From positions 16,457 through 46,781 of IMG/VR virus record IMGVR_UViG_3300030390_001570: a DNA stretch of 30,325 nt; one strand, 5' to 3'. Within the stretch, counting starts at the first letter, position 1. The number at the start of each line of letters is the position of its first letter. This DNA comes from a virus. The position numbers and the translations under genes were made by a program. Below are positions 8 to 19,200 of this stretch, piece after piece. Below the pieces are notes generated by a model. The model ran no database searches, was not told the origin of the DNA, and saw only the letters and a program-made list of their open reading frames with translations.

Positions 8-1003
8 ATGGCGTTTAAATTAAACGATAGGGTTAAAGAATCCAGTTCGACTACTGGGACAGGTACGTTTACACTTGGCGGTGCGGTAACAGGTTTTGAA
101 ACTTTTGCTGCAGGTATTGGTGGAAGTAATACGACATACTATTGTATTTTTCAAACGGGTACAAATAATTTTGAAGTAGGTTTTGGAACTTTAAACGGAG
201 GAGCAAGTACTTTAGCTAGAACTTACATTATCTCCAGTTCTAATAGCGATGCTGCTGTAAACTTTGCAGGTGCAACAGAGGTATTCTGTACCGTACCTGG
301 TGCAAAGATAGGTTTACCAAATCCTGAAGAATACGGTTCTTCATCAGCGCCAAGAATAATCACAGTTAAAGTTGCTAGTAAATCTGGTAATCACCCATAT
401 CAAGGTGTGGGTTCCGGTAATGCATATTATCTAGATGGATTAGAAGCACCAGCAATTAAATTTTCAGGGGCAGATGCATCTTACAAATATTACTACAGAT
501 TTGATCAATCTAATTCTACAAACAACGGTCACCCATTAAGATTTTATTTAGACGCTGCTAAAAATACAGCTTACACTACGGGTGTAACTACAAGCGGAAC
601 TCCAGGAAACTCTGGAGCATATACTCAAATAGCAGTAGATATTAATACACCTAATGTTGTTTATTACCAATGTTCAAGTCACGCTTACATGGGTAATTTT
701 GCAAACGTAATATCTAATTATATAAATGGTGATCTAAATGTAGGTTCATTATTAAAGATGCCGGATAATACATCTGCTAAAATATTAGTAGCAGATGGTA
801 CAAGTTATCAAGAATCAGCAGTATCAGGCGATGCAACAATTGCATCTGGCGGAGCATTGACTTTAGCTAACTCCGGAGTAACTGCTGCAACATACACAAA
901 TTCAACAGTAGCTGTTGATGCAAAAGGAAGAATAACGTCAGCTTCAAGTGGGGCTGCAGGAGTAACAGCAGGATTCGTAACGGCGATGGCCATTGCGTTA
1001 TAA
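8..1003 (+). CDS. Tail fibre/structural protein with cupredoxin-like segment
   Basis: 331 residues. The N-terminal ~100 residues (TGTGTFTLGGAVTGF, later LARTYIISSSNS and EVFCTVPG) are a module I recognise as common in marine phage fibre proteins. The middle (about 130-235) is a beta-rich segment ending in VYYQCSSHAYMGN. C222, H225 and M228, with upstream H175, match the order and spacing of a type-1 copper ligand set (His, Cys-x2-His-x2-Met). The C-terminus carries the fibre repeat VDAKGRITSASSG. It starts a same-strand series of adhesin genes. Only seven bases (aaattaa) precede the ATG in the window, so its ribosome site and any upstream extension cannot be judged. Fibre class is well supported; metal binding is inference. 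Confidence 0.8.
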   Translation: MAFKLNDRVKESSSTTGTGTFTLGGAVTGFETFAAGIGGSNTTYYCIFQTGTNNFEVGFGTLNGGASTLARTYIISSSNSDAAVNFAGATEVFCTVPGAKIGLPNPEEYGSSSAPRIITVKVASKSGNHPYQGVGSGNAYYLDGLEAPAIKFSGADASYKYYYRFDQSNSTNNGHPLRFYLDAAKNTAYTTGVTTSGTPGNSGAYTQIAVDINTPNVVYYQCSSHAYMGNFANVISNYINGDLNVGSLLKMPDNTSAKILVADGTSYQESAVSGDATIASGGALTLANSGVTAATYTNSTVAVDAKGRITSASSGAAGVTAGFVTAMAIAL

Positions 1004-1028
1004 TAAAAAATAGTTTATAAGGATAATT

Positions 1029-1367
1029 ATGGCACAAGATTTTGAACGATATGGGTTAAACGCAGTAGGCGCATCAGCAGTAGCTGTTCACACAAGTAAT
1101 TCTGATGATGCAATTATTTCTGTACGTTTAGCTAACATAACAACATCAACAATAAATGCAGATGTATTTATTACATCTTCAGTAACAGGTGGTTCTCAGA
1201 ACCATTATTTAATTAAAAATGCACCAATCGTTTCGGGCGGATCGCTTGAGCTAATAGACGGTGGAAGTAAAATAGTACTTGAATCAGGAGACGTGGTTAA
1301 GGCACAATCAGACACAGCAAGCTCATTAAGTGTTTGGATGTCTGTTGTTGATGCAATAAGTACGTAG
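1029..1367 (+). CDS. Small beta-rich virion protein, function unknown
   Basis: 112 residues with no Cys and alternating hydrophobic strands (AIISVRLANITTS, LELIDGGSKIVLESGDVVKA). AAGGA lies upstream of the ATG, 25 bases after the preceding fibre gene. The overall pattern of strands, a turn, then E-x-GDxVK and a final SVWMSVVDAIS strand resembles the protein at 12043-12372, suggesting two distant paralogues of one small beta-sandwich virion protein. Proteins of this kind occur next to fibre genes in marine phages, but I know of no demonstrated role. It could be a minor tail or head decoration protein. Real gene: confident. Function: not known. Confidence 0.75.
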   Translation: MAQDFERYGLNAVGASAVAVHTSNSDDAIISVRLANITTSTINADVFITSSVTGGSQNHYLIKNAPIVSGGSLELIDGGSKIVLESGDVVKAQSDTASSLSVWMSVVDAIST

Positions 1368-1375
1368 GATAAATT

Positions 1376-2341
1376 ATGGCTTATTTAGGAAACGCACCGG
1401 CAAGAAGTTTTATAAGTTTCGAAAGACAGGTATTTACTATTGTTAATTCTCAAACTGCGTATGCTTTATCTCATAGTGTTGCAAACGAAAATGATATTAG
1501 ACTTGTTGTAAATAACGTAGTCCAAGAGCCTGGTTCAGGAAAAGCTTATACTGCAACAGGAACAGCTCTTACATTATCAGCGGCATTAACAAATGGTACA
1601 GATGAAATGTACTGTGTATTTTTAGGTAGAGCAACTGCAACAAGTGCACCTGGTGCAGGATCTATAGGCACTGCACAATTAGCAGATAATGCAGTAACGA
1701 CTGCAAAAATTTTAAACTCAAATATAACTGTTGGAAAAATGGCTGCAAATTCTGTAGACTCTGATCAGTATGTAGACGCATCAATTGATGCAGCTCATTT
1801 AAATTCAAATACAATTACAGGACAAACAGCAGAAACTTCTATCGCAACAGATGATTTAATTTTATTATCAGATACTTCTGCTTCTGGGGCCTTGAAAAAA
1901 ATGACTAGAGCAAACTTTGTATCTGGTGTTGGAGAAACTAATACACCAATGTTTTTTGTAAGTGGTAGTAATCAAACAATCTCTCATAACACTAATACTA
2001 AAATGACAATTGATTCAGAGGCTTTTGATACAGGTAACTGTTTTGATTTAGCTGGAACTAAAAGATTTGTTCCAAATAAAGCAGGGAAATATTTTTTTAC
2101 ATTAAGTCTATTCTCACCAAGTACTGACGATATAGATTATTGGACAGCAAACATTAAAAAAAATGGTGGTTCTGGAGGTGGTTTTTCTGGAGTACAAAGA
2201 AATTATAATAATGTTTGTTATAATGGTATATTAACAGCAAATGGAAGTAGCGATTATTTTGAGGCATATTGTGAACAAGAAAGTGGTTCTAACCGAACAA
2301 TTAATGTAAGTGAATTTAGTGCATTTTATATAGGTAATTAA
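1376..2341 (+). CDS. Tail fibre/adhesin with C1q-like C-terminal domain
   Basis: 321 residues. Residues 1-95 form an N-terminal fibre module beginning MAYLGNAPARSF and containing NNVVQEP...AYTATGTALTLS, related to the protein at 3449-3901. Residues 96-150 contain repeated A-D-x-A-(V/I)-T-x-x-K-I units (QLADNAVTTAKI) typical of trimeric fibre shafts, and 155-184 contain DDLILLSDTSASGALKKMT. From about residue 188 to the end there is a C1q/TNF-like jelly-roll pattern (PMFFVSGSNQTI, EAFDTGNCF, RFVPNKAGKYFF, NGSSDYFEAYC). C1q-like tips generally form trimers and bind surface ligands, so this is probably a receptor-binding protein. Its start lies in the repeated context TAAATTATGGC with AGGA just upstream. 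Confidence 0.82.
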   Translation: MAYLGNAPARSFISFERQVFTIVNSQTAYALSHSVANENDIRLVVNNVVQEPGSGKAYTATGTALTLSAALTNGTDEMYCVFLGRATATSAPGAGSIGTAQLADNAVTTAKILNSNITVGKMAANSVDSDQYVDASIDAAHLNSNTITGQTAETSIATDDLILLSDTSASGALKKMTRANFVSGVGETNTPMFFVSGSNQTISHNTNTKMTIDSEAFDTGNCFDLAGTKRFVPNKAGKYFFTLSLFSPSTDDIDYWTANIKKNGGSGGGFSGVQRNYNNVCYNGILTANGSSDYFEAYCEQESGSNRTINVSEFSAFYIGN

Positions 2342-2359
2342 AATTAAGGAAAATAAATT

Positions 2360-3034
2360 ATGGCAATAGATAAAATAACAACACCCGCAGTAACTGATGC
2401 AAATATTACAACTGCAAAAATTACTAATTTAAATGTGACAAGCGGAAAAATAGCTGACGACGCAATCACATTAGCGAAGATGGCTAGTGGTACAGATGGA
2501 AATATTATTTCTTATGATGCATCTGGTAATCCTGTAGCAGTCGCAACAGGAAATGACGGTCAAGTATTAACTTCTACTGGTGCTGGATCACCTCCAGCTT
2601 TTGAAGATGCTGCTGGTGGAAATAATAAACCAGCATTTTATGCTTATCAAACTAGCGCACAATCAATAGGTAATGGATCAAATGTTAAAATTACTTTTAA
2701 TACAGAGTTATATGATACAGATAATAAATTTGCTTCAAGTCGTTTTACCCCAACAGTTGCTGGAACTTATGTAGTAGCTGGATCAGTCAGAACAGCTTCA
2801 ATGTCAAGTAGTATTTCTTGTGAAATTATTTTATTTAAAAATGGTTCTGTTTATGCAAAAAGTAAAGATTTTGCTTATGACGCTGATCTTCCAACTTGGA
2901 AAATATATAGTCATGTAGTAATGGACACAGATGATTATGTAGAGTTATATTTTTACAATGGAGATAATGGAGCAGTTAATTCTAATAGCTCAGATAAATT
3001 TTGTAATTTTAATGCATTTAAATTAATAACATAG
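2360..3034 (+). CDS. Tail fibre/adhesin with C1q-like C-terminal domain
   Basis: 224 residues. The N-terminal ~45 residues are a short shaft of (I/L)-x-x-x-K-I/M units (ITTAKITNLN, IADDAITLAKMASGT). The following segment, about 47-88, includes GNDGQVLTSTGAGSPP, a linker often seen in marine phage fibres. Residues 90-224 are C1q-like (PAFYAYQTSAQSI, ELYDTDNKF, SRFTPTVAGTYVV, DDYVELYFYNG). It lacks the MAYLG-type N-terminal module of its upstream neighbour, so the same tip sits on a different stem. The start is in the TAAATTATGGC context with AAGGA upstream. Probable receptor-binding protein; the ligand is unknown. Confidence 0.82.
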   Translation: MAIDKITTPAVTDANITTAKITNLNVTSGKIADDAITLAKMASGTDGNIISYDASGNPVAVATGNDGQVLTSTGAGSPPAFEDAAGGNNKPAFYAYQTSAQSIGNGSNVKITFNTELYDTDNKFASSRFTPTVAGTYVVAGSVRTASMSSSISCEIILFKNGSVYAKSKDFAYDADLPTWKIYSHVVMDTDDYVELYFYNGDNGAVNSNSSDKFCNFNAFKLIT

Positions 3035-3049
3035 GATAAATAACTAGAA

Positions 3050-3071
3050 TTTTAACACATATGTGTTAAAA
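3050..3071. repeat. Perfect 22-nt palindrome between fibre and accessory genes
   Basis: The half-site TTTTAACACAT is followed directly by its exact reverse complement. As RNA it could fold into a 9-bp stem with an ATAT loop. No U-run follows on either strand, so it is not a standard intrinsic terminator. It lies 15 bases after the stop of the fibre gene and 25 bases before the start of the 3097 gene. An operator, an RNA processing site or a weak transcription pause are all possible. Confidence 0.7.
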
Positions 3072-3096
3072 ATAACAACAACAAAGGAAACAAAAA

Positions 3097-3438
3097 ATGG
3101 CATCACTATCAAGCAAAATCACGGCATATGCATCTTCAAACGGTGTATCTTCTGTTGACTTTATGAAAGACGTTAGCCTTCAGGATGATTCAGACGGAAA
3201 AGGTCCATACATAAAATCATGGAACCTAGCTATCTCTCAACCTACAGACGCTGAATTGACAGCAGCAGAGACTGCAGCAGACGCTGCGGAAGCTCTAGCA
3301 GCAGTTCACTCAGCTAGAAGACAAGCTTACGGATCAGTGGAAAGCCAGTTAGACATGCAGTACCACGACAATGTTGACGGTACTACTACATGGAAAGATC
3401 ATGTAGCAAAAGTCAAAACTGACAATCCAAAAAGTTAA
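3097..3438 (+). CDS. Small accessory protein with fibre-assembly-like C-terminus
   Basis: 113 residues. The C-terminal half contains QAYGSVESQLDMQYHDN...TTWKDHVAKVKTDNPKS. This follows a signature (Y-x-S-x-x-x-Q-L-D-M-x-Y-H-D ... K-x-D-N-P) widespread in small proteins beside phage tail-fibre genes and in fibre-assembly chaperone-like proteins. The centre is an Ala/Glu-rich helix (ELTAAETAADAAEALAAVHS). The leader is unusual for this window: an unstructured AAC repeat with AAAGGA before the ATG, downstream of a perfect palindrome. Codon choice is also visibly more GC-rich than in the neighbouring fibre genes. It probably helps assemble or anchor fibres; the exact role is unknown. Confidence 0.72.
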   Translation: MASLSSKITAYASSNGVSSVDFMKDVSLQDDSDGKGPYIKSWNLAISQPTDAELTAAETAADAAEALAAVHSARRQAYGSVESQLDMQYHDNVDGTTTWKDHVAKVKTDNPKS

Positions 3439-3448
3439 GGAGTAAATT

Positions 3449-3901
3449 ATGGCTTACGTTGGTAAATCGCCCTTAACAGGTGCGTATCAAGTTCTGGATA
3501 ATATTGCATCCGGGTTCAATGCTTCTGCGGTAGCATTTAACTTAACGGTGGGCGGCAGTGCTGTGTCTCCAGGAACCGAAGCCAATTGTACAATTTCTAT
3601 TTCAGGTGTAATTCAAGATCCATCAGCCTATACAATAGCAGGAAATCAAATTACATTTTCATCAGCGCCAGCATCATCAGATACTTTTTTTGGAACCATT
3701 CTTGGTGACACATTTGATATTGGAACACCAACAGATGCATCGGTTACAGCTGGTTCTTTAGCATCAACTTTTTTCGTGAAAAATTCACAAACATGGAGTA
3801 GTATATCTATGGCTGGATCTACAAACGGAGCCTTGGTTGGACCCGTTACAGTTTCAGGCACAATAACAATACCATCAGGGAGTACATTCGTAATTTTATA
3901 A
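3449..3901 (+). CDS. Short tail fibre protein
   Basis: 150 residues. The N-terminal module (MAYVGKSPLTG; ISGVIQDPSAYTIAGNQITFSSAP; FFGTILG) corresponds to residues 1-85 of the protein at 1376-2341: both have a hydrophobic strand, V-I/V-Q-x-P, AYT, then a D-x-(Y/F) strand ending in LG. The C-terminus, TVSGTITIPSGSTFVIL, is a common terminal strand motif of marine phage fibres. No C1q domain is present, so it may be a stem or connector rather than a tip. The start has the TAAATTATGGC context with AAGGAG upstream. Its stop overlaps the next start as TAATG at 3899-3903. Confidence 0.78.
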   Translation: MAYVGKSPLTGAYQVLDNIASGFNASAVAFNLTVGGSAVSPGTEANCTISISGVIQDPSAYTIAGNQITFSSAPASSDTFFGTILGDTFDIGTPTDASVTAGSLASTFFVKNSQTWSSISMAGSTNGALVGPVTVSGTITIPSGSTFVIL

Positions 3902-4545
3902 TGAGTAAATTAGAAACAAACACAGTAGATAGTATTTCAGGAACTAGTACACTTACTTTAGGTGGCAGTAACGCTTCTGTTGTTTCAGCAGGAACAGAAG
4001 TAAGATCAAATAAATTATCACCTGCTTCAGGAACTGCTTTGCAAATTGGAGACAGTGGAGATACTATTACTATTCCATCTGGTGCAACGATTGTAAACTC
4101 TGGAACTCAAACAGGTTTTGGCGGTGTTAACACTCCAGCTTTTTTTGCTTATCAAACTAGCAATCAAACTATAGCTAACGCTACAAACACAGTTGTTTCT
4201 TTAGATACTGAAGCATTTGATACAGATAATGCTTTTGCGTCAAATACATTTACAGTACCAGCTGGAGAAGGTGGCAAGTATTTTTTTACTATTGGAATAA
4301 GAAAAAATGATTTTACATCTACTAGATTTAATCTCTATTTAGAAAATCAATCTGCAGTAAGTCTACTTAGTTTAGAACATGGTACTGATTCATCTTATGG
4401 TACAGCTAATGGAAGCACTATTGTAAATTTAAGTGCTGGAAACACAGTAGTAATGAAAATTTACCAAAATCAAGGTGGTAGTCAAACCACATTACAAGGG
4501 ATACATCAAACATTTTTTGGTGGATACAAATTAATCGGAGTTTAA
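3901..4545 (+). CDS. Tail fibre/adhesin with C1q-like domain (shares stem with 5121 gene)
   Basis: 214 residues. Residues 1-30 are a short N-terminal strand module (KLETNTVDSISG, TLTLGGSN). Residues 31-75 (EVRSNKLSPASGTALQ ... TITIPSGATI) are nearly identical to residues 39-83 of the protein at 5121-5783. From about residue 77 the protein is C1q-like (TPAFFAYQTSNQTI, EAFDTDNAF, GKYFFTIG, FFGGYKLIGV). It begins within the stop of the upstream gene (TAATG), so it is probably translated by coupling; there is little Shine-Dalgarno sequence of its own. The family says adhesin tip; the receptor is unknown. Confidence 0.82.
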   Translation: MSKLETNTVDSISGTSTLTLGGSNASVVSAGTEVRSNKLSPASGTALQIGDSGDTITIPSGATIVNSGTQTGFGGVNTPAFFAYQTSNQTIANATNTVVSLDTEAFDTDNAFASNTFTVPAGEGGKYFFTIGIRKNDFTSTRFNLYLENQSAVSLLSLEHGTDSSYGTANGSTIVNLSAGNTVVMKIYQNQGGSQTTLQGIHQTFFGGYKLIGV

Positions 4546-4548
4546 ATT

Positions 4549-5121
4549 ATGGCAGACGGAATTTTAAAAGTAGGAACAATAACAACGAGCTCTGGATCAG
4601 GGACCATTACTCTTGGTCAATCTGGGGAGACTGTTGATATGGCTAATGGATCTATTACTTTAAATAGTGATATGAAAGCAACTCCAGCTTTTCAAGCATT
4701 TTTATCAGCTAATCAAACATTAGCAGATAATACACAAGTAAAAATTCAAGCTAACACAGAAAGTTTTGACACAGATAGTGCTTACGATAATTCTACAAAT
4801 TATAGATTTACACCTCAAACATCTGGTAAATATGTTTTTTATGCTAATGTAAGAACAAGTGCTGGAGATGGTAACAATGCTTCTACATCAGGTTCTATTT
4901 ATAAAAATGGATCAATAGCTGCTCAGTTACAACAACATACTCACATTCCTGCAGAAGCCGCAAATATCTCTGCAGGTAATTTAATTATTTTAGAAGCAAA
5001 TGGTTCAAGTGATTATTTTGAATTTTTTGGTCTTTGTAATGATACATCAGGAGATGGAGTAGCAATAGGTTCTTCATATCCAATAACATATTTTGGAGCA
5101 TACAAGGTAATAGGAGCATAA
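4549..5121 (+). CDS. Tail fibre/adhesin with C1q-like C-terminal domain
   Basis: 190 residues. A short N-terminal stem (GILKVGTITTSSGSGTITLG) resembles the N-terminus of the 5121 protein (ILKVDTIQDTAG). The C1q-like domain runs from about residue 45 to the end (TPAFQAFLSANQTL, ESFDTDSAYD, YRFTPQTSGKYVFYA, NGSSDYFEFFG, YFGAYKVIGA). Of the four C1q proteins this has the shortest stem. GGAG in the tail of the previous gene serves as ribosome site and the start has the TAAATTATGGC context. The stop overlaps the next start (TAATG). Confidence 0.82.
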   Translation: MADGILKVGTITTSSGSGTITLGQSGETVDMANGSITLNSDMKATPAFQAFLSANQTLADNTQVKIQANTESFDTDSAYDNSTNYRFTPQTSGKYVFYANVRTSAGDGNNASTSGSIYKNGSIAAQLQQHTHIPAEAANISAGNLIILEANGSSDYFEFFGLCNDTSGDGVAIGSSYPITYFGAYKVIGA

Positions 5122-5783
5122 TGACAGCAATTTTAAAAGTAGACACAATACAAGATACAGCGGGTAATAACATTATCAACGAGAGTTCTGATACTATTAC
5201 TATTGGAGCAGCTGGTGATACAGTTACTGTGCCAGGAACAGAGGTAAAATCAAATAAATTATCACCTGCTTCAGGAACTGCTCTTCAAATTGGAGATAGT
5301 GGCGATACTATTACAATACCTTCGGGTGCAACAATAACTAATAGTGGGACTGCAAATGGTTTTGGTGGTGGAAAAATTTTACAATTAGTATCAGCGACAG
5401 ATACATCTGTTAGATCAACAACTTCAGCTTCATATACAAAAGCTAGTAATAGTTGTGATGTTGCAATAACACCATCAGCAAGTAACTCAAAAGTTCTTAT
5501 TATGTTAAGTTCTGGTGGAGGTGTAGGTGCCTCTGGAAACAGAGGATTTTTTTCATTTTTTAGAGATAGTACAGATTTGGCTCCAACTGGAGATGGAATT
5601 AGAACTATTGAAAATACTGGAGCTACTACAAGTGAAACTCCTTTTGTTGTTTATTTTTTAGACACACCTAATACCACATCTCAAGTTACTTACTCAATAC
5701 AGATGAAAACTCAAAATGGTAACTCACTATATTTTAATCAAAAAGGTGTATCAACAATGACTTGTATGGAGATAGGAGCATAA
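5121..5783 (+). CDS. Tail fibre/adhesin, non-C1q tip (shares stem with 3901 gene)
   Basis: 220 residues. Residues 1-38 are an N-terminal stem (ILKVDTIQDTAGN, DTITIGAAGDTVTV). Residues 39-83 duplicate the EV(R/K)SNKLSPASGTALQIGD module of the 3901 protein. From about residue 85 the tip is not C1q: KILQLVSATDTSVRST, VAITPSASNSKVLIM, FFRDST, VYFLDTP, TCMEIGA. The same tip occurs in the 6055 protein, and I recognise the type from marine phage fibres, but its structure and ligand are unknown to me. Translation is probably coupled by TAATG with the previous gene. Confidence 0.8.
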   Translation: MTAILKVDTIQDTAGNNIINESSDTITIGAAGDTVTVPGTEVKSNKLSPASGTALQIGDSGDTITIPSGATITNSGTANGFGGGKILQLVSATDTSVRSTTSASYTKASNSCDVAITPSASNSKVLIMLSSGGGVGASGNRGFFSFFRDSTDLAPTGDGIRTIENTGATTSETPFVVYFLDTPNTTSQVTYSIQMKTQNGNSLYFNQKGVSTMTCMEIGA

Positions 5784-5784
5784 T

Positions 5785-6051
5785 ATGGCAACAACAGAAG
5801 CAATATATAGAGCAGTAAAAATTATAAATTCAAATGCTACACTTTCTATTTCTGAAAATAATTTAGATAGTATTACTTGGGAAGATGAAACAACACCTAT
5901 TTCTAAATCGGATATTGAAGCCAAATTAACACAAGCACAAAATGAATTAGATGAAGAAGCACAAGCAGCAATAAACAAAAAAGCCTCTGGTAAACAGAAG
6001 CTAAAAGATTTAGGATTAGACGACGCAGAAATTAAAGCGTTGATAGGATAA
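5785..6051 (+). CDS. Small fibre-associated protein (XkdW-like N-module)
   Basis: 88 residues. The N-terminal half reads AVKIINSNATLSISENNLDSITW...TTPISKSDIEA, a pattern (N-x-x-A-x-x-x-I/V-x-x-x-x-x-x-x-I-x-W ... TPI-x-K-x-D-I-E-A) typical of small XkdW-like proteins next to phage fibre genes. The C-terminal half is a helical segment ending SGKQKLKDLGLDDAEIKALIG. It is a clear paralogue of the 6573 protein and follows the same kind of fibre gene, so the fibre and accessory gene appear to have been duplicated as a pair. Ribosome site: ATAGGAG at the end of the upstream gene. Likely a fibre assembly or attachment helper; not proven. Confidence 0.72.
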   Translation: MATTEAIYRAVKIINSNATLSISENNLDSITWEDETTPISKSDIEAKLTQAQNELDEEAQAAINKKASGKQKLKDLGLDDAEIKALIG

Positions 6052-6054
6052 ATT

Positions 6055-6576
6055 ATGGCAATAACTAGAATAGGACCAAATCAATCAATAAACCTTGCAA
6101 GTAATATTACAGGGACATTGGCTACAGGTAATGGCGGTACAGGTGCAACTAGCTTTGCACCAGGTAAAACTTTACAAGTCGTATCTGCTATAAGAGCAAC
6201 AGAAATTGCAACAAATAGCCAAAGTTATCAAACAACAAATTGCACAGCTTCTATAACTCCAAGTGCGTCATCAAGTAAAGTATTAGTTATGATTACTGGT
6301 TCTGGTAGAGAAGATGCTGCTGGAAATACTGCTAAATACACAATTTTTAGAGATAGTACAGCTTTGGGTTCAAATACAGCAAATGGTTTTAGTGAACAAA
6401 GTTCAGATGCAGATTTAATTAAAGCACCTTATTCTATGATTTTTTTAGATTCTCCTTCAAGCACTTCATCAGTTGCATATACTCTTTTTATGAAAAATCA
6501 AAATGGTAGTGGGAGTTGTAAGGCTTGTCATAATAATACTAATACTACAGTAACTTTAATGGAGATAGCTGGATGA
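6055..6576 (+). CDS. Tail fibre/adhesin, non-C1q tip (paralogue of 5121 gene)
   Basis: 173 residues. The N-terminus (QSINLASNITGTLATGNGGTGATSF) contains the TG(T/N)L-x-TGNGGTGATS linker common in marine phage fibres and differs from the stem of the 5121 protein. From residue 38 on it is a paralogue of that protein's tip: KTLQVVSAIRATE, ASITPSASSSKVLVM, IFRDSTALGS, MIFLDSP, TLMEIAG. A CKACHN pair of cysteines near the C-terminus is not present in the paralogue. The start is in the TAAATTATGGC context. The stop overlaps the next start as ATGA. Confidence 0.8.
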   Translation: MAITRIGPNQSINLASNITGTLATGNGGTGATSFAPGKTLQVVSAIRATEIATNSQSYQTTNCTASITPSASSSKVLVMITGSGREDAAGNTAKYTIFRDSTALGSNTANGFSEQSSDADLIKAPYSMIFLDSPSSTSSVAYTLFMKNQNGSGSCKACHNNTNTTVTLMEIAG

Positions 6577-6821
6577 TATTAGAAGCAATACTTAAAATAA
6601 ATCCTAATGCGATAGTTACTGTTAGTGGAACAGATATTAATACTTGTACTATTGAATGGTTAGAAGGAACAACACCTATTCTCAAAGCTGATATAGAAGC
6701 TATGATTCCTATTGTAGAAACTGAAATAGAAAATGTAGCAAATGAAAAATCTTCTGGTAAACAAAAACTTAAAGATCTAGGATTAACCGACGCCGAGATA
6801 AAAGCATTAACGGGAGCATAG
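6573..6821 (+). CDS. Small fibre-associated protein (XkdW-like N-module), paralogue of 5785 gene
   Basis: 82 residues. The N-terminal part (AILKINPNAIVTVSGTDINTCTIEW, then TTPILKADIEAM) and the C-terminal tail (SSGKQKLKDLGLTDAEIKAL) align along the whole length with the protein at 5785-6051. It starts inside the stop codon of the upstream fibre gene (ATGA), consistent with translational coupling and a function tied to that fibre. The family is common around phage tail-fibre genes; its biochemical role is not established. Confidence 0.72.
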   Translation: MILEAILKINPNAIVTVSGTDINTCTIEWLEGTTPILKADIEAMIPIVETEIENVANEKSSGKQKLKDLGLTDAEIKALTGA

Positions 6822-6824
6822 ACC

Positions 6825-7268
6825 ATGCTCGGACTAACTACTTTATCCGGTGCTCCAATATCGACATCGTTCTTTAACCCCAATGTTTTAGTTAATGTAA
6901 CCGGTAATCAACTATCTATTAGTGTTGGAACCGCAATAGCAACTACAAATGCTGACGCTTTACCTAGTGGTTCTAGAGTAACTCTTGGGACAGGTACAGT
7001 AACTGTTACAGGGACAGCAGTTGTAAATCCTACTGGATCACAAGTATCATTAGGCATAGGAACTGTAGTAGTTTCAGCAAATGCAAACGTATCCGTTACT
7101 GGAAACTCATTGACCTTATCGACAGGAAGTGTTACAGTAACAGGAACAGCATTAGTGAATCCAACGGGTTCACAAGTAACGGCAAAAACAGGAGAGGCAG
7201 GGATTATAACTTGGAATGATATAGTACCAGGTGTTAATATGACTTGGACAAATATAGATCCCTATTAA
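6825..7268 (+). CDS. Beta-repeat fibre-like structural protein
   Basis: 147 residues built from short valine/threonine strands. V(N/S)VTGN(Q/S)L(S/T)(I/L)S...G and TVTVTGTA(V/L)VNPTGSQV each occur twice. Such repeats (V-x-V-T-G-x-x-L-T-x-x-x-G-x-V-x-V) are a familiar beta-helical or beta-prism shaft pattern in marine phage fibre proteins. The C-terminus, WNDIVPGVNMTWTNIDPY, is a common closing motif of the same group. GGAG precedes the ATG. No receptor-binding domain is seen. It probably forms a shaft or collar component. Confidence 0.75.
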   Translation: MLGLTTLSGAPISTSFFNPNVLVNVTGNQLSISVGTAIATTNADALPSGSRVTLGTGTVTVTGTAVVNPTGSQVSLGIGTVVVSANANVSVTGNSLTLSTGSVTVTGTALVNPTGSQVTAKTGEAGIITWNDIVPGVNMTWTNIDPY

Positions 7269-7274
7269 TAAATT

Positions 7275-8006
7275 ATGGCATCATCTTTTTCAACAAACTC
7301 AAAATTAGAATTAGTCACTACCGGTGAAAAAGCTGGTCTATGGGGCACAATTACTAATACAAACTTACAGGTACTAGAACAATTATCTACAGGTTACTTG
7401 TCCTCTGCACAGCTTGCAAGTGGTGACCTTACTTTAGCATTAGATAATGGTGCAACATCTACAGGAAAAAATTTATATATAAAACTAACAGGTACATTAG
7501 GTGCAAATAGAAATGTAACTATTCCAAGTGGTGCTGAAAGAGTAATAATTTTTGAAGATGCAACAACTAGAGGAGCTTCTTCTTCTTTTTTTACAATAAC
7601 AGTTAAAACAGTTTCAGGATCTGGAGTTGTATTACCTATAGGATCTACTTCTTTAGTTTATTCTGACGGTACAAATGTTAGTTTAGGATTACGTCAACAA
7701 GGTTATGTAACATTAAACTCCTCAGCAATTACTGCGTACACTGCAGTTGATGGTGATCAAATTTTAGCAAACACAACAGCTAACCCAATTACAGTAACAC
7801 TACCAGCTTCACCTGCAACAGGTGCTGAAGTTTTATTTGTTGATGCTAGAGGCACATTTGCCAATAACAATTTAATTGTTAATAGAAACAGTCAACCTAT
7901 TAATTCAGGGACAAGTAATTTAACTTTAACAACTAGTGGCCAAGCCTTTTCATTAGTCTACGTAGATTCAACAAGAGGTTGGGCTTATAAAACCAACACA
8001 GCATAA
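7275..8006 (+). CDS. Tail fibre/tail-associated structural protein
   Basis: 243 residues. It opens MASSFSTNSKLELVTTGEKAG, then LWGTITNTNLQVLEQL, which I recognise as a widespread marine phage structural protein N-terminus (the S-T-N-x-x-x-E-L-x-x-T-G-E-x-x-G-x-W-G-x-x-T-N-x-N pattern). The rest is beta-rich (ALDNGATSTGKNLYIKLTG, ANTTANPITVTLPASP) and ends with WAYKTNTA. It lies between the beta-repeat protein and the nozzle-like protein, suggesting a component near the tail tip. No clear Shine-Dalgarno sequence precedes the start, which again has the TAAATTATGGC context, so coupling to the gene ending six bases upstream is likely. Confidence 0.77.
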   Translation: MASSFSTNSKLELVTTGEKAGLWGTITNTNLQVLEQLSTGYLSSAQLASGDLTLALDNGATSTGKNLYIKLTGTLGANRNVTIPSGAERVIIFEDATTRGASSSFFTITVKTVSGSGVVLPIGSTSLVYSDGTNVSLGLRQQGYVTLNSSAITAYTAVDGDQILANTTANPITVTLPASPATGAEVLFVDARGTFANNNLIVNRNSQPINSGTSNLTLTTSGQAFSLVYVDSTRGWAYKTNTA

Positions 8007-8018
8007 GGAGCATGAATC

Positions 8019-10244
8019 ATGGCTCTTATTGATTTTAAAGTCTTACCTGGAATAGATAAGCAAGACACAACATCTGGAGCAGAAAACAGATGGGTTGATT
8101 GTGATAATGTTAGGTTTAGATATAACTTACCAGAAAAAGTTGGTGGCTGGTCTTCATTAATATCAGATAGTATTGTAGGAGTTGCAAGACGTGAGTTTGC
8201 TTTTGTAGATTTAGAAGGTAATCGTTATGTTGCAATAGGAACTGACAAATTTTTACTTTTATATTTTGAAGGTCAAATATTTGATATCACTCCTATAAAA
8301 ATACCTTTAGCTTCTTCAACAATAGCAACTGTACAAAATTCCGCAGTGTGTACAATTACAACTGCTTCGACACATGGTTTTGAACCAGGAGATATTGTTT
8401 TATTTAATAGTGTAACTTTACCAAATAGCACTGGATATAATGCATCTGATTTTGAAAATAAATTATTTCAAGTAACTTCAACACCAACTTCAGTTACATT
8501 TACAATTACTCAAAGCTTTAATGCAACAGGTACAGTATCAACGGGTGGTAGTATATCTGTTATACCTTATGAAAAAATTGGACCTGCTGCACAATCATAT
8601 GGTTATGGTTTTGGTACAGGTCAGTATGGTGGAACTATTGCAGGTGCACAACAAACTACTTTAAATGGTTCATTAACTGCAGACACTGCAGGTACAGGTG
8701 GATCAGGAACTGTTATTAACGTTACATCAAACACAGGTTTTCCAACAGCAGGAACTATAGCTGTAGCAAACGAATTAATTACCTATACTGGAAAAGGAAC
8801 CAATACTTTAACAGGTATTACTAGAGGAGCTTTTGGAACTGCAACTGCAGGTACTTCAAATGGTCAAGCTCATTCAACAGGTGCAACGGTTACAGATGCA
8901 TCAAGCTTTACAGGTTTTGGAAGTGCCGTGCAAGCATCTAACGTGACTCTAGAACCAGGCCTCTGGAGCCTAAGTAATTTTGGTCAAGTTTTAGTTGCAA
9001 CTATTGCAAATGGTAAAACATTTACATGGAATGCAGGAGCAGCATCACCATTAACAGTTAGAGCTTCAACCGGTACTTCAGGTTTTTCAACAGCAAGTAA
9101 CCCAACTGCAACAAGAGTTACATTGGTGTCCCCTACAACACGTCACTTAATTCATTTAGGTACTGAAACAACTATTGGAGATACTACTTCTCAAGATGAT
9201 ATGTTTATAAGATTTTCTGATCAAGAAGATATAAATGATTATACACCAACAGCTATTAACAGCGCTGGATCACAAAGACTTCAAGATGGAACAAGAATTA
9301 TAGGTTCATTAAAAGCAAAAGAAACAATTTTAGTTTGGACGGATAATGCATTGTACACTATGAAATTTATTGGTGCACCTTTTACATTTGGGTTTGAGCA
9401 AGTTGGTACTAACTGTGGATTGATTGGAAAAAATGCAGCTGTTGAAATTGATGGTGTTGCATTTTGGATGAGTACAAATGGTTTCTTTATGTTTGATGGT
9501 ACAGTTAAATCACTACCATGTAGTGTTGAAGATTATGTTTATGATCAAGCAGATACAACTAAAGGTCAACAAGTAGCAGCAGGTATCAACAATTTATTTA
9601 CAGAAGTTGTTTGGTATTACCCCTCAACTAGTTCTGAGTATAATGATCAGTATGTAGTATTTAATTATGGAGAACCTATAAAAGGTGGTACTTGGTACAT
9701 TGGAACAGAAGCAAGAACTTCTTGGATTGATGCAAGTGTATATCAAAAACCAATAGCAACTAAATTTAATTCAACATCTAACGGAACTTTCCCTGCAATT
9801 ATAGGTCAAGATGGATTGGGCCAAACTCAATTATTTGAACATGAAGTAGGTACAGATCAAATTAATCAAGACGGAAGTACAACAACAGTTACATCATTTG
9901 TAAAATCATACGATTTTGATATACAGTCAAGACAAAAAAATGCACAAGGTAAATCAACAGGACCTGGTATATCTGGAGAAATATTTTTAGCTATGAGAAG
10001 ATTTGTACCAGATTTTAAAGACTTACAAGGTAATGCAAAAGTAACACTTGCTGTTAAGCGTTATCCTCAACAATCAGATACAAACACTTCTTTAAGCCCC
10101 TTTACAATTAACTCAAGTACTGATAAAAAGGATACAAGAGCCAGAGGCAGGTTTGTTAACATTAAGATAGAAAATACAGATGTTAGTGAATCTTGGCGTT
10201 TTGGTACTTTACGAATTGACATACAACCAGACGGAAAAAGATAA
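8019..10244 (+). CDS. Tail nozzle/stabilisation-like virion protein with FCCH-like insert
   Basis: 741 residues. The N-terminus (LPGIDKQDTTSGAENRW ... DNVRFRYNLPEKVGGWSS) and C-terminus (RGRFVNIKIENTD ... WRFGTLRIDIQPDGKR) match a family I recognise as podovirus tail-nozzle or DNA-stabilisation-type proteins. The core has repeated propeller-like strands (LWSLSNFGQVLVAT, MFIRFSDQEDINDYTP, TILVWTDNALYTMKF). Residues about 101-180 carry an FCCH-like module (CTITTASTHGFEPGDIVLF). A second module at about 222-296 contains GFPTAGTIAVANELITYTG. Both kinds are recurrent insertions in phage structural proteins. A strong AAGGAG precedes the ATG. The nozzle assignment rests on pattern recognition; the family is more certain than the exact position in the tail. 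Confidence 0.72.
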   Translation: MALIDFKVLPGIDKQDTTSGAENRWVDCDNVRFRYNLPEKVGGWSSLISDSIVGVARREFAFVDLEGNRYVAIGTDKFLLLYFEGQIFDITPIKIPLASSTIATVQNSAVCTITTASTHGFEPGDIVLFNSVTLPNSTGYNASDFENKLFQVTSTPTSVTFTITQSFNATGTVSTGGSISVIPYEKIGPAAQSYGYGFGTGQYGGTIAGAQQTTLNGSLTADTAGTGGSGTVINVTSNTGFPTAGTIAVANELITYTGKGTNTLTGITRGAFGTATAGTSNGQAHSTGATVTDASSFTGFGSAVQASNVTLEPGLWSLSNFGQVLVATIANGKTFTWNAGAASPLTVRASTGTSGFSTASNPTATRVTLVSPTTRHLIHLGTETTIGDTTSQDDMFIRFSDQEDINDYTPTAINSAGSQRLQDGTRIIGSLKAKETILVWTDNALYTMKFIGAPFTFGFEQVGTNCGLIGKNAAVEIDGVAFWMSTNGFFMFDGTVKSLPCSVEDYVYDQADTTKGQQVAAGINNLFTEVVWYYPSTSSEYNDQYVVFNYGEPIKGGTWYIGTEARTSWIDASVYQKPIATKFNSTSNGTFPAIIGQDGLGQTQLFEHEVGTDQINQDGSTTTVTSFVKSYDFDIQSRQKNAQGKSTGPGISGEIFLAMRRFVPDFKDLQGNAKVTLAVKRYPQQSDTNTSLSPFTINSSTDKKDTRARGRFVNIKIENTDVSESWRFGTLRIDIQPDGKR

Positions 10245-11893
10245 TGGCAAAAACTTTATTTGAATTAGCACAAGAATACTTAAATCAGGGAATGCCTGAT
10301 ATAACTCAAACCCCGAGAGTGGTTACACCACCAGCTACTACGATGCCTGTACCAATTCCTCCTGGAGGTTCACCTACAGCACGTATATTACCCATGCCTC
10401 AAGGAGGAGGCGGAGGTGGTTTTGGTGTTTATAATGCTGATCCTAATTCTACAAGAACACAAAGTAATTATAGTCCTTATGCTTATAGACAAGCTTTTGG
10501 AAAAACTGATTACCAGGATTTTAATCCAAGTAGTACATACGCTGCCAAACAAATGGAAATGAATCCAGAATACTATGAAGGTAAACAACTAACAGGTATA
10601 CCAGGCGCAGCTGCTAATTATTTAAAAAATAGTTTTCTAGGTAAAGGATTAAGTGCTTTAGGTGATAAGCTTCCCGTTAATAGAAGAGCTATATTAGAAA
10701 ATGAATTATTAGGTGCAGGAATGCAATTAAACGATATTGGACAATTTGTATCTGATGGTGGAGATATAAATAAAGCAGATGGGTCAAATATTATGGCGGG
10801 ATATAATGCTGCCAAAGTAACTCAAGAAACTTTTGATAAAAGAAGAGCTACAATTAATGCTAAAATGAAAGACCCTAAACAAAAAGCAGCGAAGTTAGCA
10901 GCTTTGGATGCAGCAGAAGAAAGTTTCTTTGGTGCAAAAACTAAAGCAGATATGGTTTTTGATGATAAATCTTTAACTAAAAATCCTGATTACGTATCTC
11001 AAAAAATTATAGATCAAAAAATAAAAGAAGCTGTAGAAGGTGAAGATGATAGCGATGATGATATAGATAGCTTTGATCCTTTAAATCAAATTGATTTTAT
11101 GCCAAGTTTTGCTGGTATGAATGCACCAAGTACTTTTACTTTAACTGCTCCACAGTATGGAGATTCTTTTGGTCAAGGCTATGGTTCAGGATATGGAAAT
11201 AATTCAATAATAACTGGAGGAACAAATCAAAATGATTTTGATGGACTTGGACCTATTACTGGAGGAACAAATCAAAATGATTTTGATGGACTTGGACCTA
11301 TTACTGGAGGAACAAATCAAAATGATTTTGTTGGACTTGGACCTATTACTGGAGGAACAAATCAAAATGATTATTCTGGTGGTGGATATAATGCCGGAAG
11401 TGGTTACAATACTACAGGTCAAGGTGGCCCTGCAGGTCAAGGAAGTATAACAAATCCTTCAAACTATGGAACAGGTAGTGGTAATTTAGGTGATTATCAA
11501 ATGCAACCTTCAACACCTACTTATCAAACTGGAACAACTCAAAGACCTGGATCAGGCGGTGGCGGCGGAGGTGGCGGCGGTGGCGGTGGCGGCGGCAAGA
11601 TAGTCTGCACCATGATGAATGAATCATATGGCTTTGGATCATTTAGAAATAAAATTTGGTTAAAACATTCAAAAGGTTTAGCACCTGAATATCAAAAAGG
11701 TTATCACAAATTATTTTTACCTTTAGTTAAATTATCTAAAACAAATAAAGTAGTTAGAAAAATATTAGAACACATTGCAGTTCACAGAACTATAGACATA
11801 CGTCAGGAATCAAGAGGCAAGGTACATTTACTAGGTAGATTATATAGAAAAATATTAGAACCTTTATGCTATTTGGTAGGTAAACATGGCTAA
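10244..11893 (+). CDS. Gly-rich virion protein with 45-bp repeats and conserved C-terminal domain
   Basis: 549 residues. The N-terminal region is Pro/Gly-rich (about 20-55), followed by a helical, charged middle (about 95-285). Then come 3.6 copies of the 15-residue unit TGGTNQNDFDGLGPI, a low-complexity Tyr/Gly/Gln region, and 14 consecutive glycines. The final ~97 residues (KIVCTMMNESYGFGSF ... HKLFLPLVKLSKTN ... GRLYRKILEPLCYLVGK) form a separate domain that I recognise from many marine phage proteins. Its function is unknown to me. The start overlaps the previous stop (TAATG). The flexible Gly hinge suggests a tethered, swappable terminal domain. Virion location is inferred from neighbours. 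Confidence 0.75.
   Translation: MAKTLFELAQEYLNQGMPDITQTPRVVTPPATTMPVPIPPGGSPTARILPMPQGGGGGGFGVYNADPNSTRTQSNYSPYAYRQAFGKTDYQDFNPSSTYAAKQMEMNPEYYEGKQLTGIPGAAANYLKNSFLGKGLSALGDKLPVNRRAILENELLGAGMQLNDIGQFVSDGGDINKADGSNIMAGYNAAKVTQETFDKRRATINAKMKDPKQKAAKLAALDAAEESFFGAKTKADMVFDDKSLTKNPDYVSQKIIDQKIKEAVEGEDDSDDDIDSFDPLNQIDFMPSFAGMNAPSTFTLTAPQYGDSFGQGYGSGYGNNSIITGGTNQNDFDGLGPITGGTNQNDFDGLGPITGGTNQNDFVGLGPITGGTNQNDYSGGGYNAGSGYNTTGQGGPAGQGSITNPSNYGTGSGNLGDYQMQPSTPTYQTGTTQRPGSGGGGGGGGGGGGGGKIVCTMMNESYGFGSFRNKIWLKHSKGLAPEYQKGYHKLFLPLVKLSKTNKVVRKILEHIAVHRTIDIRQESRGKVHLLGRLYRKILEPLCYLVGKHG
11213..11372 (+). repeat. 45-bp in-frame tandem repeat, about 3.6 copies
   Basis: The units start at 11213, 11258, 11303 and 11348; the last is partial. 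The first two copies are identical and the third differs by one base (Asp to Val). They encode the unit TGGTNQNDFDGLGPI in the middle of the Gly-rich virion protein. Near-identity at DNA level, including third codon positions, indicates recent expansion by slippage or unequal recombination. Confidence 0.92.
11555..11596 (+). repeat. Poly-glycine codon tract (14 GGN codons)
   Basis: Fourteen consecutive GGN codons, mostly GGC and GGT, form a very G-rich island inside an AT-rich genome. It is the hinge between the low-complexity region and the conserved C-terminal domain of the surrounding gene. Such a tract is likely to vary in length. Confidence 0.9.
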
Positions 11894-16226: not shown

Positions 16227-19200
16227 ATGGCGGAACAATTTGTACCCTTAAACTCAGCAGAACAAGATAGTGAAACCTCTTGGTACACTGCAGCAGCAGC
16301 AGGAATTATATCCGGTATTATAAAAATACCTGAAGGAATAGTATCTCTTGGAGCAGAGTTAATTGATCTAGGTGCAGGAAGTGATACAGCAGCAGGTGTT
16401 GAACAATTTTTTGATAAATTAAATCCCTTTGAAGAAGTAGCTGAAGAAAGAGGTATAGGTAAACTTACAGAAGCTATAATGCAAATAGGTGTACCAGGAA
16501 CTATTGGTCTTAAAGTAGCTAGTAAAGCCGCAAGGAATTTAACTGCTAAAGCTTTAAAAGCAAAACGTGCTGGAGCTTATGCTCAATTAGGAACGCCACA
16601 ATTTAAACAAGCTTTAAATAAAGTAGGTGAGTTAAATAAAAAATTAAAAATTCCAAGATATGCAGCAGGTGTTATGGGTGGCGCAGCAGGAGAAGTGTTG
16701 GTTGCTGATGTTGAAGGTATTGGTACTTTTGGAGATATGTTTGATGGCGGACCTACTAAACTAGATAGAGAAGAAACTACTGGAAGAGATGAAGCTGGAA
16801 GAAAAATATTAAACAGATTAAAATTTGGTTCTGAATCTTTGTTAGTAACTCCTTTTGTTTATGGCGCAGGTAGAGGACTTAAAGAATTAGCTAATAGAGG
16901 TAAAGACGCAGCTTATAGTAAGTCTGCAATTATTAGAGCTTTAGATAAATACGTTAGAGCTCCTTTTGTACCTGAAGGAAATTTAGGTAAAGAAATATTT
17001 GATTCTGAAAATATGAAAGAAGCTTTAAAAGCTACAGATATAGGAAGAGCAAAACAAATAGTAGACAACCTTACTAGAGAAGTAGATGCTATATTTCCAG
17101 ATATTAAAGTTGCATTTGATGCAGGTTTAAAAAATGAAAAAACAGAATTTATGAGAAAGTTAGATGATATTCTTTTTGAAGGAGAACTTGGACAAGTTAT
17201 AGATCGTAAAAAAATAGATGATCTTTTAGAAACAATGAAAAAAGGTAATGTTAAAGAAGATTCAAGACAAGCTATAATTGGCGGATTAAATAATGCTAGG
17301 ACTGAATTTGTAGAGTTAATGGGTATGTTGGATAAATCTCTTGTTGGTAAAGTTACACCTAAAGGTAAAACACTTTCCAAAGGTCAAACAGAGTTAAAAG
17401 GTCTTTTATCTAAAAGAGTTAATAACTGGGTAGGGGGATCATATAAAATGTTTGAAGAACCTAAAGGATTATTTAAATTTATGAAAAGATATAAACCAAC
17501 ACAAGAAGCTAATGATAATGCAGTTAGATTTTTTAGAGAACAAATAGCTAAAGAAAATGGTGATAAAACATTTGACATAGCTAGCAATAAATACACTTTT
17601 GAAGCACAGGAAATAGTTGATAAATTTATTAAAGAAGGTGCAAAAAGAAAAAAACCAGCGCCTCTAGCTTTAAAAGAATTTGTTAATAAAACTATGGAAG
17701 GTAAATCTGGAGCTGAATTTATAAAAGAAGCTATGAAGACTGGTAATATTCCACCGCCAGCTATTAGAGAACTAATGGGAGAAATTAAAGATCCTAGATA
17801 TTCTATTTATAATGCTATGACTAGTTTATCTTCTGTTACAAGAACAGCAGCATATCTTAAAGATGTTTCTGCTAAAAATGATGCTGTACAATTAGGAGGA
17901 CAAAGAGGATTTTTTTGGCCAACTAAAAATGCTGCCGAAAATGCTGTTGATTTTAAAAATACAGGAATTGAATTAGTAGCTATAGACGATATTATAAAAC
18001 AAATGCCTGGAGCAGGTAAAATTGCTAATCCACTTGCAGGTAAATATACTACTAAAGAAATTGCAGAAGCAATTGGAAATGCTAATGGTATAGATACTTG
18101 GCTTCAAGGTTTTGTTAGAGGAGAAGGTAAAGAAGGAGCGGAAGCTGCAGCGAGTTGGTTTTATAGAAATTTATTATTATTTCCAAAAGGTATTTCACAA
18201 ATGTCTAAAACAATATTTTCTGCACCTACACACATACGTAATTTTTTAAGTGCTTTTGGTTTTGCCGGAGCTAATGGTAATTTATTTGAACCTGAATTTT
18301 ATACTAAAGCATTTGGGGAAGGTGTAGATGTTGCAGGTTTAGCTAAACTTGGTCCAACTAGTCCAAAAATGCAAACAGCTTATAGAGAACTACAAGAATT
18401 TGGTCTGGTAAATCAACAAATTCAAGTAGGAGATATGAAAGGTATGTTCGAACAAATTCAAACTCTTGGCATATCACCTAATGTAGATGGCGTGTTAGGA
18501 GCAATGATGAAAAAATTAAAAAAAGTAGGTCAGTTTGCTCAAGGAAAATATATTCAAGAAGATGATACTATTAAAGTGGCAAGTTATATAACTGAGATGG
18601 GTAAATTAAAAAGAGGGTACGCTAAAGCCGGAATGCAAGTACCCCAAGATATATTAAAATTTGTTCCTGAAGAACAATTGCTTAAAAAATATGATGATTT
18701 AATGGAAGCTGGTTATAATAAAACATACAAAGAATTTAAACAAACAGAATCTTTAAAAAGAATGGCTGTAGAGATTGTTAAAAATACTGTTCCCAATTAT
18801 GCTTACGTTGGGTCAGCTGTTAAAACAGCAAGGTTATTACCTATAGGTAATTTTATGTCTTTCCCATCTGAAATGATAAGAACTACAACTAACATTGCAG
18901 AGCTAGGAATAAATCAATTAAAACATTCAGGTAAAACTAAAGGAAGTAACATTCTTCCAATGGTATTTGATGTAGAAGCTAATGCTTTTGTTAAAAATGA
19001 TAATCCTTTTTACGGAGATGGAATGAAAAGATTATTGGGTTTAGCTACATTTACTACAGCTGCACCTATTGCAATAACTGAAGGAGCAAAAGCTTTATAT
19101 GATGTAACTCAAGATGAGTTAGATGCTTTAAGAAGATTTGTACCGGATTGGTCAAAAAATTCTACTTTAATTCCAGTTAGAGATGATGAAGGAGAATTAA

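Follow-up and report, generated by a model that had tools for sequence, protein, structure and literature searches.

Tip domains are exchanged beneath a nearly fixed order of stems in a fibre-type gene array of a probable pelagiphage

How do pelagiphages, which are among the most abundant viruses of the ocean, keep pace with the variable surfaces of SAR11 cells? The question is raised by a run of small fibre-type genes within a viral DNA stretch of 30,325 nt (the window, i.e., the whole stretch analysed). The window phage is a relative of the HTVC023P-type pelagiphage podoviruses: the gene order is homologous to theirs, and its stabilization protein gave full-length matches to those of 023Pt_psg01 (67% identity), HTVC023P and HTVC027P (46% each). 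The fibre content of these three phages differs from that of the window phage. The host is probably SAR11 (Pelagibacter), as judged from the cultured relatives. The cultured Pelagibacter phage HTVC115P carries the same array, its fibre genes being annotated as hypothetical, so that the predictions made from the array can be checked in the laboratory. The array was compared with 249 non-redundant loci.

The initial annotation described seven fibre-type genes at 1376–6576, and all seven open reading frames were recovered at those positions (Table 1; genes are named by their first nucleotide). The limits of the array are better set at 1376–6821. The array genes lie on one strand and abut or overlap. 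Homologues of the tail-fibre-annotated protein upstream flank the left edge of the arrays in relatives; the HTVC115P homologue of the 112-aa left anchor is gp65; the S4 protein is 69–98% identical among well-covered relatives; and the region of the phrog_31104 anchor shows 85–98% nucleotide identity to the closest relatives. Three XkdW-like genes inside the array (3097, 5785 and 6573), including tip-linked partners, had been overlooked in the initial annotation. Gene 3097 holds the same position in 17/17 complete C1q-type arrays.

Table 1. Features of the array and its flanks, with the match value or identity where one was obtained.
Coordinates	Strand	Feature	Match or identity
8..1003	+	tail-fibre-annotated protein (phrog_30742), conserved upstream anchor	1.2e-39
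1029..1367	+	conserved 112-aa protein, left anchor of array	71-96% identical in 80 loci kept
1376..2341	+	slot S1: MAYLG stem (phrog_18673-like N-terminus), linker, C1q-like tip ~1910-2338	
2360..3034	+	slot S2: MAIDKI stem, C1q-like tip ~2621-3031	
3097..3438	+	XkdW-family protein, fixed place between block A and block B	PF09636 2.7e-15; phrog_9114 1.3e-25
3449..3901	+	slot S4: MAYVG tipless protein, block B base, conserved middle anchor	phrog_18673 5.5e-57
3901..4545	+	slot S5: MSKLETN stem, SNKL linker 3989-4126, C1q tip ~4123-4542	
4549..5121	+	slot S6: MADGILKVG stem, C1q tip	
5121..5783	+	slot S7: MTAILKVDTIQD stem, SNKL linker 5233-5370, T2 tip ~5367-5780	
5785..6051	+	partner gene to S7 T2 tip, XkdW/phrog_9114-related, 88 aa	
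6055..6576	+	slot S8: MAITRIGPNQSINL stem, T2 tip ~6163-6573, predicted TNF/C1q-like jelly-roll fold	
6573..6821	+	partner gene to S8 T2 tip, 82 aa	
6825..7268	+	conserved 147-aa protein, right anchor, end of array	
7275..8006	+	conserved protein (phrog_31104), right anchor	2.2e-117
8019..10244	+	phage stabilization protein, structural, lineage marker	phrog_3287 5e-117

Genes 1376, 2360, 3901 and 4549 share a C1q-like tip (mutual BLASTP E values of 2e-13 to 6e-19), and 5121 and 6055 share a second tip, T2 (39% identity, E 1e-27), in agreement with the division into four and two that was proposed at first. The product of 3901 passed the Pfam C1q gathering cut-off (PF00386; 32.3 bits versus 23.7, E 1.3e-7); that of 4549 matched below the cut-off (E 0.0075), and those of 1376 and 2360 gave no Pfam match, these three being called C1q-like because of their homology to 3901. 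The T2 tip is a predicted jelly-roll like the solved TNF-like trimeric lectins: fold matches of its AlphaFold2 model (mean pLDDT 79) to the lectins PLTL and BC2L-C ranged overall from E 2e-6 to 1e-4, the Foldseek values being 1.9e-6 for PLTL (target TM 0.76) and 2e-5 for BC2L-C. The T2 profile matched PDB entry 9efk, “orf22” (1.3e-21), for which a literature search found no paper. Among the further tip classes, the class 3 member tested has an S74 chaperone domain (Pfam).

A small gene specific to the tip class lies downstream of T2 tips and of those of several further classes, but not of C1q or S74-chaperone tips. The partner gene was present downstream of 78/91 T2 tips and 1/265 C1q tips, a difference that was significant in four slots when each was taken singly (p 1e-10 to 7e-5). 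When tips were collapsed at 50% identity, 149 of 150 C1q clusters lacked a partner, and 49 of 58 T2 clusters had one throughout. Tips of class 4 were followed by partner P1 in 32/32 cases, there was no partner for any of 38 class 3 tips, and the C1q gene of slot S5 in the window is likewise without one. Some of the 13/91 T2 tips with no adjacent called partner have gaps of 161–275 nt. The single apparent C1q exception to the rule, at locus L242, clusters with tip class 2, which is normally partnered. In phage Lederberg, a single XkdW-like gene comes after three genes of the T2 type. Within T2, tip and partner distances were weakly correlated (Mantel r 0.22; 0.12 for divergent pairs), and the linkage is therefore claimed by class and not as one-to-one specificity.

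Gene 3097 passed the Pfam XkdW threshold (PF09636; 56.3 bits versus a cut-off of 24.6); 5785 and 6573, 49% identical to each other and scanned against PHROGs only, matched phrog_9114 at about 1e-5, and a related partner at L293:9045-9335 had no Pfam match. The class linkage, together with weak fold matches (BFVD) of the partner to entries bearing the name tail assembly chaperone (E 0.016 and 0.14), may point to a chaperone function. Gene 3097 showed a weak match to phrog_8746, “tail fiber assembly protein” (0.12). The partner gave no significant match among PDB structures; its profile did match HSP70 entries there (0.0015), which we attributed to chance similarity of a helical stretch. As with Tfa-type chaperones, the gene lies directly downstream of the fibre gene and is inherited with it. 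The partner could instead stay permanently on the tip as a subunit or adaptor, as the gp38 adhesin does in T4-type phages; this would suit its class specificity and its place directly downstream of the tip, and gp38-like proteins are listed in the account of pelagiphage islands in PMC3909814. We consider it unlikely, if a serious contender, since the partner is predicted to be small and helix-rich rather than a lectin or polyglycine fold, and since class 3 tips, of which the member tested has its own S74 chaperone domain, have no partner. Both points are indirect; the latter fits a folding role better than a permanent subunit.

The MAY(L/V)G stem occurs with and without a C1q tip, as first noted: the N-termini of 1376 and 3449 both match that of phrog_18673 (3e-9 and 5.5e-57), and 3449 has no tip. 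The EV(R/K)SNKL segment of 3901 and 5121 is indeed carried on both tip classes (repeat D1; 82.6% DNA identity over 138 nt, E 1e-36, far beyond chance) and ends at the tip junction, but it had been taken for a stem, and at amino acids ~37–80 it is an internal linker rather than the extreme N-terminus. The N-terminal stem order S4-S5-S6-S7-S8 is nearly invariant across the lineage. Stem S4 preceded S5 in 37 instances (S4 counts are low, the S4 ORF being missing from some relatives, such as L249, probably through longest-ORF start choice), S5 preceded S6 in 66, S6 preceded S7 in 50, S7 preceded S8 in 56, S5 preceded S7 in 27 and S6 preceded S8 in 17; for the reverse orders, S6 before S5 and S7 before S6 were never seen, and S7 before S5 was seen six times. 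These counts rule out freely shuffled stems, and since complete arrays also have one of each stem apiece, only the tips move.

Some relatives carry the block twice, the two copies being in register. Block A stems had their best block B match in the corresponding slot (A1-S5 12/12, A2-S6 15/16, A3-S7 14/19), and so, reciprocally, did block B stems in block A (35/44, 36/55 and 27/27 for S5, S6 and S7). Four tip genes were present in block B in 17/17 complete C1q-type arrays, and arrays with 6–8 tips are common in the lineage, so the number of small adhesins, thought unusual in the initial annotation, is not. As one phage has several genes whose tips are alike, these might be alternative receptor-binding proteins, with only one or a few expressed or mounted at any moment. 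This is improbable: complete arrays hold one of each stem and not interchangeable copies; for the abutting and overlapping genes, promoter-like and terminator-like sites were not clearly more frequent than in shuffles; the region 1000–8100 has only short, imperfect inverted repeats; and no invertase or reverse transcriptase was recognised among the window ORFs examined. Alternative rather than co-assembled products, both of which had been offered at first, are thus disfavoured.

Under conserved stems one tip gives way to another, and tips also pass from slot to slot. In close relatives, stem DNA is often 80–99% identical under dissimilar tips. For pairs with a mean anchor identity of 84%, same-slot stem DNA averaged 86–87% identity (S6, S7) and 76% (S5), and the median same-slot tip identity was 26–30% at the amino acid level; stem DNA of different slots within one genome was 61% identical. 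Same-slot tips of near relatives came from different families in 121–217 of 287–328 pairs per slot. Different phages carried near-identical tips on stems that are unrelated to each other (98.9%, 96.5% and 95.7% DNA identity), the best cross-slot case being S6 of L025 and S5 of L248 (98.9% over 458 nt, tip only). The tip DNA of 4549 also occurs on another stem, in block A slot 3 of L226 and L227 (86.8% over 424 nt, tip only); the domain shuffling first proposed holds in that stems and tips recombine, but not for the order of the stems. In one case a tip and its partner moved between slots as a unit: S5 of L089 and an S7-like slot of L293 are 94.7% identical over 733 nt, from the tip start to about the partner stop.

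Could the array have arisen by tandem duplication and divergence within one lineage, with no tip exchange between phages? Blocks A and B are duplicated in register, 5121/5785 and 6055/6573 resemble a duplicated two-gene unit, and 72/224 C1q tips had their nearest relative in the same slot, versus 35 expected by chance. However, 72 is a minority, and the congruence of stem and tip trees that had been named as the result contrary to shuffling was not found. The cross-slot DNA matches, on which we reject pure tandem duplication, the tip-plus-partner transfer and the different tip families of near relatives make this reading very improbable. Capsid decoration, to which the “putative hoc protein” annotation of an S4 homologue in Synechococcus phage S-BM3 would point, is also very improbable: the locus is flanked by tail-fibre-annotated genes on one side and the gene for the stabilization protein on the other, phrog_18673 is a family of tail fibres, and a block A homologue of the S4 protein weakly resembles the T7 tail-fibre N-terminal domain (PF03906 0.012).

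We give a probability of roughly two in three to a multi-position receptor-binding complex in which docking segments are specific to their position and tips can be swapped, some tips having a cognate, probably assembly-related partner. The position-specific N-terminal segments (~25–35 aa) would, from their conservation, probably be docking addresses, each followed by a linker and, at the C-terminus, a predicted trimeric jelly-roll tip belonging to the TNF/C1q superfamily, which would probably bind surface glycans. The MAYVG protein, which has no tip, and its paralogue with the MAYLG stem would probably be bases resembling T7 fibre N-termini. Tips may be exchanged by homologous recombination in conserved gene-start DNA and in repeated SGDTITIPSG linkers, and the partners may help to fold, trimerise or cap their own tips. 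All array products would be co-assembled on the tail, in which event several adhesins would be displayed at once and host range would be changed by swapping one cassette. Such exchange may let the virus track changing hosts. Counting against this explanation, C1q and T2 tips both look TNF-like, yet the helper goes with only one of them. A bolder version, put forward tentatively and at a little under even odds, is a standardised scaffold: a five-position block (one base and four addressed fibres), sometimes duplicated in register, which draws upon a population-wide pool of tips and tip-partner pairs to display 6–8 different adhesins at once on each virion, in combinatorial sets. From the sequence one can read what is exchanged (tip, or tip plus partner), what stays fixed (the order of the stems) and where crossovers are likely (gene starts and linkers), and testable predictions follow as to host range and as to which small hypothetical genes are fibre helpers.

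The branched multi-tailspike systems of Ackermannviridae likewise encode several receptor-binding proteins per gene cluster, in which the N-terminal attachment parts are conserved and the receptor-binding domains exchanged. Those phages have few large tailspikes; in the present array the fibres are small jelly-roll proteins, 6–8 in number, their N-termini are tiny, blocks are duplicated in register and partner genes go with particular tip classes. The Tfa proteins of Mu, P2 and lambda are cognate tail fibre chaperones; here, in contrast, the partner is XkdW/phrog_9114-like, and no Tfa match was detected. With XkdW of the Bacillus prophage PBSX (PDB 2HG7), 3097 shares Pfam XkdW membership, its match to 2HG7 being weak (0.015), whereas 5785 and 6573 were linked to it only through phrog_9114 in the searches made. 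Hypervariable C1q genes of pelagiphages are already known: the metaviromic islands described by Mizuno et al. (2014, PMC3909814) hold C1q and tail-fibre genes, and XkdW with function unknown there, and like our array they comprise hypervariable host-recognition genes with conserved N-termini and variable C1q C-termini. The island passages of that paper treat single genes and under-recruitment, with no slot order, block duplication, cross-slot transfer or tip-partner linkage. No description of the slot order, the block duplication or the tip-partner rule turned up in the literature searched, and in PMC9599517, which deals with 80 uncultivated genomes of the HTVC023P type, no passage covers tail fibres, receptors or C1q. 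Closer to the exchanged pairs are the tail fibre and cognate chaperone modules of Alteromonas phages V22 and A5 (PMC10579305), in which a fibre gene is followed by a small helper and exchanged between phages as a module; unlike these and the Tfa modules, the array has several pairs, and its C1q tips have no partner. Lastly, the chimeric MAT fibres of Bdellovibrio bacteriovorus (PMC10769870) are phage-like trimers whose tips have diversified and include TNF-like and S74 forms, but these are bacterial predator proteins of ~1,000 aa, whereas the genes described here form a slot-ordered phage operon.

All seven fibre-type ORFs listed in the initial annotation were present in the window (16457-46781 of a 46,781-base uncultured virus record). 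The C1q-like tip (C-terminal domain) was supported by mutual similarity and, for gene 3901 (genes are named by start coordinate), by a Pfam match above cut-off; the second tip, T2, was likewise confirmed as common to 5121 and 6055 (39% identity), as was the SNKL segment common to 3901 and 5121 (82.6% DNA identity over 138 nt, stopping at the tip). Three XkdW-like small genes (3097, 5785, 6573), absent from that earlier list, turn out to be central to interpretation of the locus. In the window the left block of the array is reduced to 1376 and 2360, and the XkdW gene 3097 comes next.

Array genes of the window and of the cultured phage HTVC115P (locus L309, 8983-11911), by slot (S), with the N-terminal stem segment given as the pattern of that slot
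Source	Gene	Assignment	Stem	Remark
Window	1376	S1		
Window	2360	S2		
Window	3097	XkdW-like		
Window	3449	S4	MAYVG	
Window	3901	S5	MSxLETN	
Window	4549	S6	MADGxLKVG	
Window	5121	S7	MTxILKxDTIQD	
Window	5785	XkdW-like		
Window	6055	S8	MA(I/L)TR	
Window	6573	XkdW-like		
HTVC115P	gp65	left anchor		
HTVC115P	gp64	S1, C1q tip		
HTVC115P	gp63 + gp62	NGDM-type tip + gp62		placed by eye
HTVC115P	gp61	XkdW		
HTVC115P	gp60	S4		
HTVC115P	gp59	S5, C1q tip		
HTVC115P	gp58	S6, C1q tip		
HTVC115P	gp57	S7-type, C1q tip		
HTVC115P	gp56 + gp55	S8-type + gp55		placed by eye

IMG/VR was searched for relatives with four anchors (stabilization protein, T2 gene, 1029 protein and tipless 3449 protein) and gene 4549 as an additional query, regions of cultured phages were added, and the 305 sequences were reduced to 249 clusters (98.5% identity over 1,500 nt). 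Tips and partners (the small genes directly after tip genes) were assigned by iterated profiles; no gene of the collected loci was matched by both the C1q and T2 profiles. The stabilization protein gave full-length matches to 023Pt_psg01 (67%) and to pelagiphages HTVC023P and HTVC027P (46%), and the window phage, judged by its cultured relatives, presumably infects SAR11. Inspection of the ORFs in the upstream part of the record suggested terminase, portal and capsid proteins. A short stretch of ambiguous bases immediately before the window (XXXX in ORF L007:16217-16474; G000 about 16430-16460; region L007:15503-17000) points to a scaffold gap or masking. ORF 10244-11893, which contains a long run of glycines and roughly four tandem copies of GGTNQNDFDGLGPIT, had no match in a PHROG search. 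Annotated 2OG-Fe(II) oxygenase-type genes adjoin the fibre genes in relatives L004, L005 and L006; none was seen at the corresponding place in the window.

The order of the stems is nearly fixed, and in some relatives the block is duplicated in register. Transitions along the loci were S4>S5 37, S5>S6 66, S6>S7 50 and S7>S8 56, with skips S5>S7 (27) and S6>S8 (17), and the reversals S6>S5 and S7>S6 were never found in the loci collected; transitions outside this order include S8>S5 (22) and S4>S8 (25), as would be expected from the left block, which also contains S1- and S8-type genes. The right block had four tip genes in each of the 17 complete C1q-type arrays, and in seven of these the left block comprised a base without a tip (MSYLG), three C1q genes with stems corresponding in register to S5, S6 and S7, and an S8-type gene.

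Tips were replaced under conserved stems. In pairs of related arrays, whose anchors were on average 84% identical, stem DNA of the same slot averaged 86-87% identity in S6 and S7 and 76% in S5, compared with 61% between different slots of one genome; median same-slot tip identity was 26-30% aa. L240 and L093 (anchors 92% and 94% identical to the window) kept S6 and S7 stem DNA at 93-97% with tips at 23-39% aa identity. In BLAST comparisons only patches of roughly 90-130 nt at the start of genes were alike. Tips also move across slots: the L025 (S6) and L248 (S5) genes, whose stems differ, were 98.9% identical over 458 nt from the stem end to about the stop codon, tip DNA was 95.7% identical between L262 (S7) and L025 (S6) and 96.5% between L182 (S6) and L274 (block A slot 3), and the 4549 tip was 86.8% identical to that of L226 block A slot 3 over 424 nt.

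Partners are specific to tip class. An XkdW-like or GKQ-type small gene followed 78 of 91 T2 tips and 1 of 265 C1q tips, the sole C1q case clustering with tip class 2. This is not due to position or duplicate contigs, because the rule holds within slots S5, S6, S7 and S8 (Fisher p 1e-10, 1e-6, 3e-6 and 7e-5) and persists with tips collapsed at 50% identity. The remaining classes follow a comparable pattern: class 2 (tested member BclA_C-like) had partner type P0 in 45/50 and class 4 type P1 in 32/32; class 3 had a partner in 0/38, and its tested member contains a Pfam S74 chaperone domain (5e-10). In one instance tip and partner changed slots together, between L089 (S5) and L293 (S7-like), 94.7% identical over 733 nt, the shared DNA stopping within about 10 nt of the partner stop; the pairs L072/L284 (83%) and L010/L231 (75%) resemble it. 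In cultured Kolga, HTVC010P and HTVC106P the gene immediately after a T2-matching gene matches the partner. Phage Lederberg departs from the pattern of one partner for each tip: a single XkdW-like gene follows a row of three T2-type genes whose stems differ (L314 472-2452; classified by eye). No ORF was called in the 161-275 nt downstream of T2 tips in L249, L262, L276 and L072, where a partner gene may have decayed or may use a non-ATG start.

The T2 model (mean pLDDT 79) matched the TNF-like lectins PLTL and BC2L-C and Chlamydia Pgp3, and T2 is thus probably a distant C1q/TNF relative. The partner was modelled with confidence (pLDDT 91) as a long helix preceded by a short alpha-beta segment; it had no significant match in the PDB and only weak matches to viral proteins named tail assembly chaperone. 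The C-terminus (residues 458-658) of 'orf22', a solved 658-aa protein in the 18-chain entry PDB 9efk, matches the T2 profile (1.3e-21).

The initial annotation had left open whether the fibres are co-assembled or alternative. Co-assembly of all is favoured from sequence, because each array carries one of each stem, its genes, all on one strand, adjoin or overlap, internal promoter-like sites are not clearly in excess, and no long inverted repeats were clearly seen in the array. All fibres would then be mounted together, each docked by its stem at its own place; recombination may proceed via the conserved gene starts and SGDTITIPSG linkers, and partners may assist assembly of their cognate tips.

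No report of the slot order, duplicated block or tip-partner rule was found in the open-access papers searched. HTVC115P has its array in the same slot order, its fibre genes annotated as hypothetical. PMC3909814 describes pelagiphage C1q and tail fibre genes as under-recruiting and variable, and lists XkdW, of unknown function, in the islands that hold them. Exchange of fibre-chaperone modules among phages is known (PMC10579305), and Bdellovibrio is known to have trimeric fibres whose tips are TNF-like (PMC10769870).
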